In this document: in pieces, positions 2,372 to 6,398 of the stretch
Position numbering within the stretch: the stretch's first letter is position 1
Layout of the letters: each line of letters starts with the position of its first letter
Source of the DNA: a virus
Reading direction: 5' to 3' (one strand)
Virus record (IMG/VR): IMGVR_UViG_3300036719_001326
Location: 1 to 32,142 of that record
Length of the DNA: 32,142 nt
Translations under genes and position numbers: made by a program
The notes under the pieces: generated by a model
Seen by the model: the letters and a program-made list of their open reading frames with translations, nothing else
Databases searched by the model: none
Told to the model about the DNA's origin: nothing

Positions 2372-2505
2372 TGAAACAGTCGTTTGATTTTTTGAAGGAT
2401 GGTTGGTTTCGGCTTTCCCATTGCAAGGAGGAGCGCAACTGTGATGGCAGCGTCCCGCCCGATGCTACGGGTTGGAGTTTTGAACGGTGTGTGTGTGGTT
2501 CTCAT
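2368..2505 (-). CDS. 45-aa protein encoded between annealase and nuclease genes
   Basis: A 45-residue frame fills exactly the gap between the ERF gene and the nuclease gene. Its ATG at 2505 overlaps the ERF stop as ATGA, and its TGA overlaps the nuclease ATG in the same way. The product starts MRTTHTPFKTPTRSIGRD, has a short hydrophobic stretch (AAITVALLLAMG, residues 19-30) and ends in a basic helix (KIKRLF). No family is recognised. The double coupling is strong evidence of translation. It could be a small partner of the recombinase pair or simply a coupling peptide. Confidence 0.65.
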   Translation of the reverse strand: MRTTHTPFKTPTRSIGRDAAITVALLLAMGKPKPTILQKIKRLFQ

Positions 2506-3086
2506 ACTGTGGTGTTTGCTTTGTTTTTGGCGATAAATGCCTTGTCGATTGCGGGGACTTTATCGGTCGTGAGTTGCCCGATAGACTTGACTCCGTAGTG
2601 GCGAAGAAAAGCGGCTTCGTCGATGTTGAGGCTTTCGATGCTTTCCTTGATCCGTGCTGCCTCTCCGCTGGAAATGAGCGGGTAGGTGGCGGGTTTCGTA
2701 TGCGCGGCGGCGTTCCCGTCGTCATCCTCCTGAGCGACTCCGCAAACGGCGGCTAACGAGTAGCGGCGAAGGTAGGTTGTTGCGGCTCCGATGCCCTGCC
2801 CGTCCTGTTTGGCTGGGACACATGACATTGTGCCTGAGACATACCCTCCCCCGCTGTGGGCGATTGTGGTGGTGACATGGCAGATTCCCCCGTCAAATGA
2901 TGGGGACTGGATAACGGATAGACCGTTGGCTGCTAGGACGGGGCGGACGGTGTTCAAGACCTCCGCCAAATCTGCGTATTTGCTTTTGAAATGGGGATTG
3001 AGACTCCCCTTGGTGGCGTTTTCAACCTCCCCTTGCATTTTGGCGAGGGCGGCGAATAATTCTGGTGTGCTGTGTTCTAGGCGCAT
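2502..3086 (-). CDS. erf: ERF-family single-strand annealing protein
   Basis: The 194-residue protein carries the ERF signatures NPHFKSKYADLAEVL (residues 30-44) and GIGAATTYLRRYSLAAVCGVAQEDDD (98-123), with the beta-rich segment in between. ERF proteins bind single-stranded DNA and anneal complementary strands during phage recombination and genome circularisation. The C-terminal 60 residues are variable and helical. It lies just upstream of the RecE-like nuclease, the usual two-component arrangement. The ATG at 3086 has a 57-nt leader holding a T-arm-like hairpin and AACCAACA, so this is probably a separately controlled translation unit. Confidence 0.92.
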   Translation of the reverse strand: MRLEHSTPELFAALAKMQGEVENATKGSLNPHFKSKYADLAEVLNTVRPVLAANGLSVIQSPSFDGGICHVTTTIAHSGGGYVSGTMSCVPAKQDGQGIGAATTYLRRYSLAAVCGVAQEDDDGNAAAHTKPATYPLISSGEAARIKESIESLNIDEAAFLRHYGVKSIGQLTTDKVPAIDKAFIAKNKANTTV

Positions 3087-3112
3087 TTATTTTTGTTGGT
3101 TTGTGTGATAGT

Positions 3113-3131
3113 GCAAGGGATAGAACCTCGC
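3113..3131 (-). promoter_or_regulatory. T-arm-like leader hairpin upstream of erf
   Basis: On the minus strand the sequence is GCGAGGTTCTATCCCTTGC, a 6-bp stem with one G-U pair and the 7-nt loop TTCTATC. It is followed by ACTATCAC and then the A-rich leader of erf. It shares its architecture with elements at 4294 and 4948, whose loops are TTCGATC and TTCCATC. The loops match the tRNA T-loop pattern TTCNANC. A post-transcriptional role is inferred from position. Confidence 0.55.
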
Positions 3132-3143
3132 GTTGGTGATGTT

Positions 3144-3461
3144 TTACGGTTTGCCCTGCTCTTCGGCAAGGATATTTTCTGAGTATTTTCGCATGATTTT
3201 CCTGACACGCTCGCGGGTGTTCTCGCAGTATTGCAACTGGCTAAGAATCTTTGCCCTGGCATAAACTGCTGAGGTGTGGTGAATGCGCCCTACGATCTCG
3301 CAGGCGGATTGCAGGGAGTGGGATTCCGCCCATAAAGTCATTACGATTTGGCGGGCGAGTGCTTCCGCGAAGGTTTTTCGCTTTCCGGTGATGGCCTCCA
3401 CGGGAATAACCATAACGTCGGCGGCGGCTCGGAGAAGGGCTGGGGCGTTGTCGATTAACAT
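3144..3461 (-). CDS. Stand-alone DnaA domain-IV-like DNA-binding protein
   Basis: The 105-residue product resembles only the C-terminal DNA-binding domain of DnaA. Residues 21-72 run VEAITGKRKTFAEALARQ, then a helix, SACEIVGRI and HHTSAVYARAKI. In DnaA the corresponding parts are the basic loop, the AxRQIAMYL helix and the DHxTVxHAxxKI recognition helix. There is no AAA+ ATPase part. It could bind DnaA boxes at the phage origin or compete with host DnaA. A DnaA box lies at 6212-6220. The ATG at 3461 overlaps the stop of the preceding gene by 7 nt (ATGTTAA). A longer frame exists upstream but runs through neighbouring genes. Confidence 0.75.
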   Translation of the reverse strand: MLIDNAPALLRAAADVMVIPVEAITGKRKTFAEALARQIVMTLWAESHSLQSACEIVGRIHHTSAVYARAKILSQLQYCENTRERVRKIMRKYSENILAEEQGKP

Positions 3462-3766
3462 ACGCCCCCCTTTCTGATCGAGCGGAGCAGTCTGGCAGCG
3501 GATCGGCGGTTGCATTCTACGGATGGTTCCCTCCTGGGGAATTTGATTCCGATAGCGGCATATTTTTTTATCTCTCCGCATGAGGTGTACCATCCTGTAT
3601 AAAGGCGGGTCTCTCCGTGCAAAGTGTGAACCTGCCCACATTGCGTGTGCAGCGTCTCGAAGGGCGGTTTCCGGCGCGGTGCTGGCGGTTCTGGAATGTC
3701 CATGTCTGGATCGTAAGCAGGGCGTGGACATTCCGGTTCAATCGCGGATTCGTAAAAGGCTTTCAT
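3455..3766 (-). CDS. Hypothetical early protein (103 aa)
   Basis: This product starts MKAFYESAIEPECPRPAYDP, is Pro-rich in its first third and basic at the C-terminus. It has five cysteines, including CGQVHTLHGE and SCGEIKK, which might bind metal. No family is recognised. The ATG at 3766 gives an ATGA overlap with the stop of the membrane-protein gene before it. The open frame continues upstream to 4042, but that extension overlaps two other genes and has shadow-like composition. Confidence 0.6.
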   Translation of the reverse strand: MKAFYESAIEPECPRPAYDPDMDIPEPPAPRRKPPFETLHTQCGQVHTLHGETRLYTGWYTSCGEIKKYAAIGIKFPRREPSVECNRRSAARLLRSIRKGGVC

Positions 3767-3945
3767 TTTGTTAGGAGGTAGGTGGTGAGGGACGCGATGA
3801 TAGCGGTGGCGAGGATTAACAACCATACGCCAAGGGGCGAAGGTTCCGGCGGTTGGCGGCGGTTTATGTTCCGGCGCGGGTGCGGGATGATAGTGACGGG
3901 GAGGAAAGTATCCCCTGCTGGCGTTGTGTGTGTGTGTGTGTTCAT
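3763..3945 (-). CDS. Small single-pass membrane protein (60 aa)
   Basis: Residues 1-37 are polar and Pro/Thr/His-rich (MNTHTHTTPAGDTF...). Residues 38-60 form one clear membrane segment (LGVWLLILATAIIASLTTYLL) ending in TK. The arrangement suggests a tail-anchored inner-membrane protein. The ATG at 3945 lies two bases after the stop of the preceding gene. Function is unknown; small early membrane proteins of phages often act in superinfection exclusion or host takeover, but nothing here proves that. Confidence 0.6.
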   Translation of the reverse strand: MNTHTHTTPAGDTFLPVTIIPHPRRNINRRQPPEPSPLGVWLLILATAIIASLTTYLLTK

Positions 3946-3947
3946 GT

Positions 3948-4073
3948 TTATTCTGGTTCGTCTGAGAATGTGTCGATGTAATCGCAATGATCTTCCGGTT
4001 CGTCCCATCTCTCATTTGTGGACGGTTCGGGCGGCGCGTCAAAGCGGTGTTTATCTTCGTCGGGAAGGATCAT
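3948..4073 (-). CDS. 41-aa strongly acidic protein
   Basis: This 41-residue frame encodes a highly acidic peptide (starts MILPDEDKHRFDAPPEPS, ends DTFSDEPE) with 14 Asp/Glu. The ATG at 4073 overlaps the previous stop as ATGA, and the next gene starts two bases after its TAA. It is translated in a coupled string, so a real product is likely. Small acidic phage proteins sometimes mimic DNA, but that is speculation here. Confidence 0.55.
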   Translation of the reverse strand: MILPDEDKHRFDAPPEPSTNERWDEPEDHCDYIDTFSDEPE

Positions 4074-4273
4074 GGCGTGATGGTGGGGTTTGTCGGGATT
4101 GTGTCGAGAATAAAAAATGCCCTTTCCATGATTTTCCCATCCAAGCGGGAAAGCTCGGCGGCGGTGATCGTTCCGGCGTGATAGTGGCGGGTGATTTGCG
4201 TTTCCCGCTTGGCGAGGTCTTCGCGGGTGATAGCGGTGCGGATGCGGTCTGATAGTGCGGCGTAAGTTGTCAT
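4070..4273 (-). CDS. Small hypothetical protein (67 aa), predicted helical
   Basis: The product begins MTTYAALSDRIRTAITRED and is mostly helical with a charged middle, ending in the Pro/Thr tail TIPTNPTITP. No family is recognised. The ATG at 4273 lies just after the leader CACTATCACAAA and 20 nt downstream of a T-arm-like hairpin. A longer frame to 4360 would read through that hairpin and is not preferred. Its stop overlaps the next start as ATGA. Confidence 0.55.
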   Translation of the reverse strand: MTTYAALSDRIRTAITREDLAKRETQITRHYHAGTITAAELSRLDGKIMERAFFILDTIPTNPTITP

Positions 4274-4293
4274 TTTGTGATAGTGATGATAGT

Positions 4294-4310
4294 GCGGGGA
4301 TCGAACCCGC
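4294..4310 (-). promoter_or_regulatory. T-arm-like hairpin with canonical TTCGATC loop
   Basis: The minus strand reads GCGGGTTCGATCCCCGC, a perfect 5-bp stem with a 7-nt TTCGATC loop. This is indistinguishable from a tRNA T-arm. It is followed by ACTATCATCACTATCAC and the ATG at 4273. No matching acceptor, D-arm or anticodon arm is found upstream, so it is not a complete tRNA. It could be a leader element or a short match to a tRNA 3' end such as a phage attachment site. Confidence 0.6.
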
Positions 4311-4323
4311 TGGTTTGTTAGGT

Positions 4324-4608
4324 TTACATATTGCCGCGCAGGGTTTCCATTGATACCCAATGTGAGAGGGCTTCACTAACGATGTCTGGAGTGACGCGAG
4401 CCTCGCACCTGGCATCGGCTAGGGATTCGTTGACCGATTCAGTTTCGGCAGCTATGTTTAGATTTCCTGACTGGAATGTTTCGGCTAAATCTAAATCATG
4501 CCCCCAATTATCGCGGATGGTTTCAACGGCGGCATCGCGGATTAGAGTCATGGGAACTCCAGCGTTGCAGTTTTCAAGATTGAGGATTTGTGAGATATTG
4601 TAGTTCAT
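4324..4608 (-). CDS. Hypothetical early protein (94 aa)
   Basis: The 94-residue product is acidic and helical (starts MNYNISQILNLENCNAG) with no recognised domain. The ATG at 4608 follows an 11-nt gap after the preceding stop, and the leader ACAAAACGAAA is purely A/C/G without a Shine-Dalgarno box. Length and composition are those of a real gene; function is unknown. Confidence 0.65.
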   Translation of the reverse strand: MNYNISQILNLENCNAGVPMTLIRDAAVETIRDNWGHDLDLAETFQSGNLNIAAETESVNESLADARCEARVTPDIVSEALSHWVSMETLRGNM

Positions 4609-4619
4609 TTTCGTTTTGT

Positions 4620-4748
4620 TTATGGTTGTGTGAGAGTTGCGCGGCGGAATGCCTCAGCATCGGAGATTCCGCCAAGTTTGCCGTTGGATGCGGCGATTGC
4701 TAGTGCGAAAGCGGCAAGGGCAAGGATAAGGTAGAAAGCGTTTTTCAT
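4620..4748 (-). CDS. 42-aa membrane or exported peptide
   Basis: The product starts MKNAFYLILALAAFALAIAAS, one basic residue followed by a 17-residue hydrophobic core, then a polar tail ending RATLTQP. It looks like a signal peptide or single N-terminal membrane anchor. The ATG at 4748 is chosen over an upstream ATG at 4847, because the upstream extension overlaps the neighbouring gene and lacks protein-like features. The leader is CACTATCACCCC, matching those of the genes starting at 4273 and 4935. Confidence 0.55.
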   Translation of the reverse strand: MKNAFYLILALAAFALAIAASNGKLGGISDAEAFRRATLTQP

Positions 4749-4761
4749 GGGGTGATAGTGT

Positions 4762-4935
4762 TTAAATCCAAGGGAGGTTTTCCAAGCTGTCATTTGAGCC
4801 TTTCCATTCCGGCTCATCCATTCGATCTTCGAATTCAATCTGCTCATGTGCTAAGTCACGGGCGGCTGATGGCGGGGCGTCTTTAGCTATCCAATAATTA
4901 AAAGCTGCGGCAAAGCGTTCTTGGTAAGTTTTCAT
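4762..4935 (-). CDS. 57-aa acidic hypothetical protein
   Basis: This frame encodes MKTYQERFAAAFNYWIAKDA followed by an acidic helix (EQIEFEDRMDEPEW). The ATG at 4935 lies downstream of the T-arm-like hairpin at 4948-4966 and the leader CACCATCACCCT. The stop lies 13 nt before the next start. No family is recognised. Position, leader and natural composition support expression. Confidence 0.55.
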   Translation of the reverse strand: MKTYQERFAAAFNYWIAKDAPPSAARDLAHEQIEFEDRMDEPEWKGSNDSLENLPWI

Positions 4936-4947
4936 AGGGTGATGGTG

Positions 4948-4966
4948 GCAAGGGATGGAACCTTGC
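4948..4966 (-). promoter_or_regulatory. T-arm-like leader hairpin upstream of the 57-aa gene
   Basis: The minus strand reads GCAAGGTTCCATCCCTTGC, a perfect 6-bp stem with loop TTCCATC. It is followed by CACCATCACCCT and the ATG at 4935. It shares stem position, loop pattern and downstream ACYATCAC motif with the elements at 3113 and 4294. Confidence 0.55.
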
Positions 4967-4976
4967 GGGTTTGAGG

Positions 4977-5321
4977 TTAGGCCACTTCCTTGAAAATCAA
5001 ATAAGTGTAAAGCCTTGCGGATTTTGCGGCATCATACGCCTTTCCTGTTGGATTGATTCCCAACCCATCAAGAAAGCTGGCGATTGCGTGATTTTCATAC
5101 TCAAACCCGAAAGGCAAGCCCATTAGATAATCGTGGAAGCGTTCCTGGTTATTGGGAAAGCGGCGAAGGTTTGCGGGATGGTTTGCCACTCGCTCAAACT
5201 CTCCGCGAAGGCGAAGGATTGCACCCTCTAACGTGGGGAATGTTTCCCCGTTGTCATCCGTGACGGATTCAAGGATATGGGCGCGGATTGCGTTCCTAAC
5301 TTCTTTGCTGTTTGTTTTCAT
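4977..5321 (-). CDS. Hypothetical early protein (114 aa)
   Basis: This soluble 114-residue protein begins MKTNSKEVRNAIRAHILESV. It has a helix-rich middle and the segment FHDYLMGLPFGFEYENHAIASFLDGLG. It resembles an uncharacterised group of phage and plasmid proteins (recalled pattern, not searched). The ATG at 5321 is preferred to the upstream frame start at 5384, which overlaps the preceding gene. The leader carries AACCAACACAAA 12 nt upstream. Confidence 0.65.
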   Translation of the reverse strand: MKTNSKEVRNAIRAHILESVTDDNGETFPTLEGAILRLRGEFERVANHPANLRRFPNNQERFHDYLMGLPFGFEYENHAIASFLDGLGINPTGKAYDAAKSARLYTYLIFKEVA

Positions 5322-5848: not shown

Positions 5849-5860
5849 TGGTACGTACCA
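5849..5860. repeat. Palindrome TGGTACGTACCA
   Basis: A perfect 12-bp palindrome. Its GTACGTAC core recurs at 6137-6144, and CGTACG lies inside the iteron array at 6248-6253. These could be binding sites for a dimeric protein. Confidence 0.5.
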
Positions 5861-5905
5861 AGAGCAAAACCCAAGCGGAAAGAACAAGAAGGGAAGGGAA
5901 GGAAT

Positions 5906-5952
5906 GAAGGGGAAAGGAAGAGAAGGGAAAGGAAGGGAAGGGAAAGGAAGGA
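5906..5952 (+). repeat. 47-nt uninterrupted purine tract
   Basis: An unbroken run of G and A built from imperfect GGGAAAGGAAG units. The purine bias extends leftward to about 5876 with only a C and a T interrupting. Such tracts can form triplex DNA or act as origin-associated elements. The frame translated across it is low-complexity Lys/Gly/Glu/Arg and is not considered a gene. Confidence 0.75.
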
Positions 5953-6176
5953 TTCAATGTTTCAAGAACCTATTGCCATTCCCCATTAAATATCCACAAC
6001 AAGTCGCATCCCCTTTGCTTCGCTGGCTGGCATCGCTAACCAATTGCTCTGGTAAGAATAGGATAATCACCGCTGTCTAAAAGTGTCAAGCAAAAAATTC
6101 GCGATTTTGAAATTAGAGTTGTCACAAGTTGAGGGCGTACGTACTTGAGGCTGCGACAAGTAAGGTAAACGCTAGG

Positions 6177-6332
6177 TTCAAGCGGTCGTTTCAATCCAAA
6201 GTTGTTAACACTTATTCACAGCGCATGATTCAAACGAGAGATTCAAGCGTACGTTTCAAGCTACCGGCACAGCTACCGGCGCAGTTCCCCCGAACACTAC
6301 TCACGCGAGCACCTTTCAAGCGGTCGCTTCAA
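6177..6332 (+). repeat. TTCAA iterons with 13-bp period
   Basis: TTCAA occurs at 6177, 6190, 6229, 6242 and 6255, all on one 13-bp register, and again at 6315 and 6328, also 13 bp apart. The best pair, TTCAAGCGGTCGTTTCAATC (6177-6196) and its 19-of-20 copy at 6315-6334, spans two units each. The regular spacing resembles iteron arrays bound by initiator proteins. The two empty units of the array hold the DnaA box. Confidence 0.6.
6212..6220 (+). promoter_or_regulatory. DnaA box TTATTCACA
   Basis: This matches the consensus TTATNCACA exactly and sits between iteron units. The phage encodes a stand-alone DnaA domain-IV-like protein at 3144-3461, which could bind it. One box alone may occur by chance. 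Confidence 0.45.
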
Positions 6333-6367
6333 TCGCAAGTTAGTGCAAGTGCAAGTTAGTTGCGTTA

Positions 6368-6398
6368 GGGGGGGGAGGGGGTTGCGCGGCGGTGGGGG
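6368..6398 (+). other. G-rich run with possible G-quadruplex
   Basis: Runs of eight, five and five guanines (6368-6375, 6377-6381, 6394-6398) lie close together downstream of the iterons. A quadruplex is possible, since the eight-G run can supply two G-tracts. No function is shown. Confidence 0.4.

Follow-up and report, generated by a model that had tools for sequence, protein, structure and literature searches.

Phage T4, like other phages, has recurrent hairpins with the loop motif CUUCGG (Tuerk et al., 1988, via PMC8948821), in which a fixed loop tops a variable, paired stem; their location is mainly intergenic, with some copies near early gene transcripts, and transcript stability is one of their known roles. 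Short repeats between non-structural genes were likewise described in cluster K mycobacteriophages, where SAS is a fixed 13-bp sequence beside the start codon and ESAS is an inverted repeat of conserved sequence for which an RNA hairpin is unsupported (PMC3203893). A third point of comparison is the tRNA T-arm, whose loop carries a purine at position 57 and U at position 55; a 17-nt T-arm hairpin with GUUYRANYC suffices as a TruB substrate, TrmA requires merely a 5-bp stem and a 7-nt T-loop (PMC7912444), and the motif of human TRUB1 is GUUCNANNC (PMC5713356). The phage hairpin considered here shares features with each of these, and no description of it was found in open-access papers.

The window, i.e., the whole stretch of DNA analysed, is a viral contig of 32,142 nt (IMG/VR record IMGVR_UViG_3300036719_001326), in which a minus-strand early module encodes an ERF single-strand annealing protein, a RecE-like exonuclease, an SSB-like protein (DUF3127) and a DnaA-C-like ORF, and a plus-strand late module encodes terminase and an SU10-type capsid protein. 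Three minus-strand hairpins with T-arm-like loops had been predicted originally in early-gene leaders, and their coordinates and sequences proved exact. Hairpin 1, GCAAGG(TTCCATC)CCTTGC with 6 bp (4948-4966; 35.4 bits with the covariance model R1; folding z -4.3), begins 10 nt after the TAA stop (4977-4979; identical copy in L002) of the minus-strand ORF 4977-5321, and the 12-nt A/C-rich spacer CACCATCACCCT (4936-4947) separates it from the ATG (4935-4933) of a 57-aa ORF (4762-4935) of unassigned function and with no family match. Hairpin 2, GCGGG(TTCGATC)CCCGC with 5 bp (4294-4310; 30.0 bits; z -2.6), follows the TAA stop (4324-4326) of ORF 4324-4608 by 13 nt and precedes, across the 20-nt A/C-rich spacer ACTATCATCACTATCACAAA (4274-4293), the ATG (4273-4271) of a 67-aa ORF (4070-4273), also of unassigned function. 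Hairpin 3, GCGAGG(TTCTATC)CCTTGC with 6 bp (3113-3131; 33.2 bits; z -3.4), which shows covariation in orthologous leaders, lies 12 nt after the TAA stop (3144-3146) of the DnaA-C-like ORF 3144-3731; a 26-nt A/C-rich spacer (3087-3112) leads from it to the ATG (3086-3084) of the ERF gene (2502-3086; PF04404, E 4.7e-24; phrog_2324). All these features are on the minus strand. The match of ORF 3144-3731 to the DnaA C-terminal DNA-binding domain is weak (E 9e-6, below the Pfam cut-off).

Such a number of hairpins exceeds chance, as GGTTCNATCC occurs three times in the 32-kb window against 0.38 expected and none of 100 shuffles reaches three. When each region was folded from stop to start, the T-loop hairpin was the sole structure (-7.9 to -8.9 kcal/mol; z -2.6 to -4.3). 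As had been stated, no full tRNA is present, since ARAGORN finds neither tRNA nor tmRNA in the window, and the window hairpins match no Rfam family even at a permissive threshold, at which two sub-threshold matches only were obtained. Several gaps of at least 40 nt on the early strand carry no hairpin, and thus the element is not needed at every junction.

Other repeated sequences were noted in the same region. A CACTATCAC-like motif recurs in the early leaders (3105-4947, minus strand); with at most one mismatch it has 16 matches against 4.7 expected, mostly on the early minus strand and often immediately 5' of an ATG. In relatives it is also present after hairpins with other loops, and it is possibly an element of its own, acting in translation or regulation. 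The divergent region between the early and late modules contains a long purine-only tract of GGAAGG-type repeats (5860-5960), and a divergent control region at 6170-6370 contains repeated TTCAAGCGGTCG/TTCAAGCGTACG-like sequences that are possible operators.

Differing stems that keep their pairing had been taken in the original prediction as a sign of selection on structure, a view supported by compensatory changes in orthologous leaders and by the large number of copies in phages both related and unrelated. Searches by protein homology, with the DnaA-C-like ORF and ERF as queries, yielded 94 loci. Among the closest relatives, the majority have two to four such hairpins apiece, with differing stems, at the same gene junctions and at others besides. 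The rows of the ERF-leader alignment (A2) were picked for orthology, with no regard to pairing. In it, 96.3% of the cells are paired; covariation is 0.653 against 0.285 in shuffled and at most 0.222 in slid alignments, and 10 double-change cells fall on four of the six pairs. A wider set of 42 collected copies scores 0.739 against 0.203, a value inflated because its rows were picked with at least 4 bp. This covariation also separates the hairpin from ESAS, the sequence of which is conserved (PMC3203893).

Pairing was further counted beside every TYCNAYC occurrence located 10-33 nt after a stop in the protein-homology loci, regardless of its flanks. Contiguous pairs numbering 0, 1, 2, 3, 4, 5 and 6 or more were found in 65, 25, 12, 5, 2, 10 and 31 cases, respectively; this bimodality indicates a chance tail and a separate paired class, the group with 5 or more pairs not being the tail of the group with 0-4. 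Because loci gathered by sequence pattern are biased in favor of that pattern, the main counts were also made on the protein-homology loci; copies of one clade are not independent of each other, and gene starts and stops are simple ORF calls. Together, the shuffles, the bimodal counts and the covariation in ERF leaders rule out a chance origin of the set. Inverted repeats can be protein-binding sites, and a single window offers three copies only, but a DNA-level operator or a chance inverted repeat is extremely improbable: stem variation is compensated, orientation and stop distance are fixed, and the counts are far above chance. Covariation and the bimodal pairing distribution have largely refuted this reading, and the element probably acts at the RNA level.

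The covariance-model search proposed at the outset recovered further copies in other phages. Of 30 phage records, 24 have matches to R1, with up to eight copies in one (G001), a count in which the weakest matches are marginal, the variant with C at position 55 is under-reported, and most records had been collected for carrying the motif, so that it gives no estimate of frequency. The terminase lineages of these records differ, comprising the window type, that of G025 near Burkholderiales phages, that of G001 weakly near the Verrucomicrobia phage P8625, and that of G006. The element thus occurs in several unrelated, mostly uncultured phage lineages. The relatives P8625 and C75C1 are without it, and a check of six isolate records (P8625, C75C1 and VPv64, and parts of BcepGomr, ART and POI1126) revealed no paired leader copy. 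An element of host chromosomes was considered and rejected, given that one stem-specific pattern searched in 84,980 bacterial genomes hit 56 stretches, mostly in one actinobacterial coding gene, and none in a comparable A/C-rich leader. A search of 149 Planctomycetota genomes under strict filters and without a positive control gave no match, nor did a search for the host through terminase among genome contigs or a DNA search with one leader against a phage collection. The A/C-rich, non-Shine-Dalgarno leaders of the window resemble those of P8625, a likeness that makes Verrucomicrobiota a plausible host of the window clade.

Each hairpin had been described as sitting directly upstream of an early gene start behind an A/C-rich leader; the A/C-rich spacer before the ATG is there, but the anchoring to the start does not hold, the fixed neighbour being the upstream stop codon. 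Across 94 copies, most hairpins have their base 6-14 nt from the stop (median 9.5), and the ATG follows the hairpin by 10-48 nt, unlike SAS, which abuts the start codon with a fixed sequence. The limits of this table (stop distance from -3 to 40, ATG distance up to 50) are wide enough to have shown a flat distribution, which was not seen. In a survey of 2264 stops from 27 records, all 69 TYCNAYC hairpins start at offsets of 6-19 nt, in contrast to 676 other hairpins scattered over 0-30 nt, and no other loop is comparably recurrent. A prospective test, consisting of two scans of viral contigs with other stems and with patterns containing no stop codon, returned about 20 new A/C-rich leader-like matches, nearly all of them preceded by a stop at a distance of 6-13 nt, and matches in coding sequences and tRNAs without such regular stop spacing. 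In another clade (L279, L280, L281, L282 and L289), the hairpin lies about 7-15 nt after the stop, but the following gene mostly begins about 80-100 nt beyond it; in these records, ACAAACGGCAGCCTAG-type direct repeats also lie in the stretch from the T-loop hairpin to that gene. Distant ERF orthologs (L012, L013, L021, L024 and L026) retain a hairpin at 9 nt from the stop but with non-T loops (GGACAAA, ACGACAAACA, AAAT and GGAA), which implies that the position of the hairpin is conserved more widely than its T-loop. The anchor is therefore the upstream stop codon, not the downstream start.

A hairpin or pseudoknot about 8 nt after the stop is also typical of the stop-codon readthrough elements of RNA viruses. 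The stop distance is similar here; however, the downstream gene has its own ATG, and readthrough was rejected because the random gap lengths modulo 3 (33/36/25) and the predominance of TAA (72 of the 94 stops) argue against it.

A place just 3' of stop codons would also suit a transcription attenuator, a partial intercistronic terminator mostly lacking a U-tract, and a T-rich tract does follow some copies (L221, L230, L264 and L408). At least seven T in the next 10 nt are found, however, after only 5 of 133 hairpins and after none of the window copies, the rest continuing A/C-rich, and the 128 copies without a U-tract argue against an ordinary terminator. Moreover, copies lie within operon-like arrays, up to eight per record, and terminators are not expected to conserve their loop, making attenuation improbable. 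Alternatively, the hairpin could insulate translation or control reinitiation by keeping ribosomes that have terminated from sliding on to the following start, in agreement with the location of its base at the expected leading edge of a terminating ribosome. Yet gaps of about 20-40 nt nearly abolish reinitiation in the tested E. coli and Haloferax gene pairs (PMC10666635), so that a block would hardly be needed at gaps of about 50 nt, and members of the L279-L282/L289 clade mostly have about 100 nt before the following start. Such insulation is accordingly unlikely.

The loop itself is nearly invariant in the element, which consists of the loop T-Y-C-N-A-Y-C, a G-C closing pair (112 of 115) and a 5-9 bp stem of variable sequence. 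Among the stop-anchored hairpins of the protein-homology loci, 38 have the exact loop consensus and one a single mismatch, and among hairpins upstream of 798 genes in 19 phage records no 7-nt loop besides T[TC]CNA[TC]C recurs comparably. The T-arm resemblance noted originally is thereby upheld: like tRNA T-arms and the minimal TruB and TrmA substrates (PMC7912444), the hairpins have a stem of at least 5 bp, the closing pair equivalent to G53-C61, and a 7-nt loop with U54, C56, A58 and C60, and they may adopt a true T-loop fold. They differ in that position 57 takes any base (C 38, A 24, T 20 and G 12 in 94 copies), in place of the purine of tRNAs, in that position 55 is C in 13 of the 94 copies and T in 81, including all three of the window, and in that the other parts of a tRNA are absent. 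A tRNA or tRNA remnant was rejected on the negative ARAGORN and Rfam results and on the loss of the purine at position 57. Two phage tRNAs encountered during scanning, one in L374 (6017-6093, Ser) and one in L385 (6630-6702, Asn), nevertheless overlap a TCCGATC arm, and their predicted T-arm GCGGGTCCGATCCCCGC has C at position 55.

These features bear on the possibility that the hairpin is a T-arm mimic, through which a host factor acting on isolated T-arms (TruB, TrmA/TrmFO, RNase P or RNase Z) would modify, cut or chaperone phage mRNA, or would itself be titrated. The near invariance of U54, C56, A58, C60 and the closing G-C pair beside varying stems agrees with this possibility, as do the small substrates sufficient for TruB and TrmA and the TRUB1 motif. 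In addition, BLASTP found no protein family common to all hairpin phages tested, which points to a host factor as the reader, or to no reader at all. On the other hand, U55, the base that TruB changes, is replaced by C in some copies, the tRNA purine R57 is not conserved, distant orthologs exchange the whole loop and keep the hairpin position, and a fixed distance to the stop codon is not predicted. The T-arm mimicry suggested originally is thus weakened in its TruB-type form, and recognition by a T-arm factor is doubtful, if still a real prospect. A related proposal, which we consider rather unlikely, is an undescribed, widespread class of phage RNA in which a free-standing T-loop hairpin at the front of the terminating ribosome would recruit a host tRNA-handling factor, or dock on ribosomal or RNase P RNA, and so process or switch polycistronic mRNA at each stop codon.

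The explanation we tentatively prefer, with a probability of roughly 0.4, is that the hairpin serves as an intercistronic element of mRNA punctuation or stability, similar to the T4 CUUCGG hairpin but capped by a T-loop and located where the terminating ribosome would have its front. It is favored because readthrough, termination and insulation are argued against and because the CUUCGG hairpin is the closest working analogue, from which the phage element differs in having a 7-nt U-Y-C-N-A-Y-C T-loop instead of a UUCG tetraloop closed by C-G, and in being tied to the upstream stop. Each hairpin would be a cis-acting RNA structure at a gene junction of a polycistronic phage mRNA, with a short stem closed by G-C under its tRNA-like T-loop and flanked by G-poor, A/C-rich single strands (the flanks contain about 4% G). 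With its base about 10 nt 3' of the stop codon, the stem would lie just ahead of a ribosome terminating there, a placement that depends on the footprint size of the terminating ribosome. Folded outside that ribosome, the hairpin could hold back exonucleases advancing into the upstream cistron and keep the A/C-rich ribosome-loading site of the next gene from pairing with upstream sequence, a punctuation role like that supposed for the T4 hairpins. An effect on mRNA decay or translation is thereby predicted. The early-strand gaps that have no hairpin and its absence from P8625 and C75C1 weigh against this explanation. The main unexplained fact is that pure stability does not account for near-invariant loop letters beside a variable stem, and for this reason a T-arm-reading factor stays the chief rival.

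If its role is mRNA punctuation, the T-loop hairpin would represent a second, independent answer to the problem that T4 solves with CUUCGG hairpins. If, instead, a host factor that reads T-arms binds it, these phages would be borrowing the tRNA-processing machinery for their own mRNAs.
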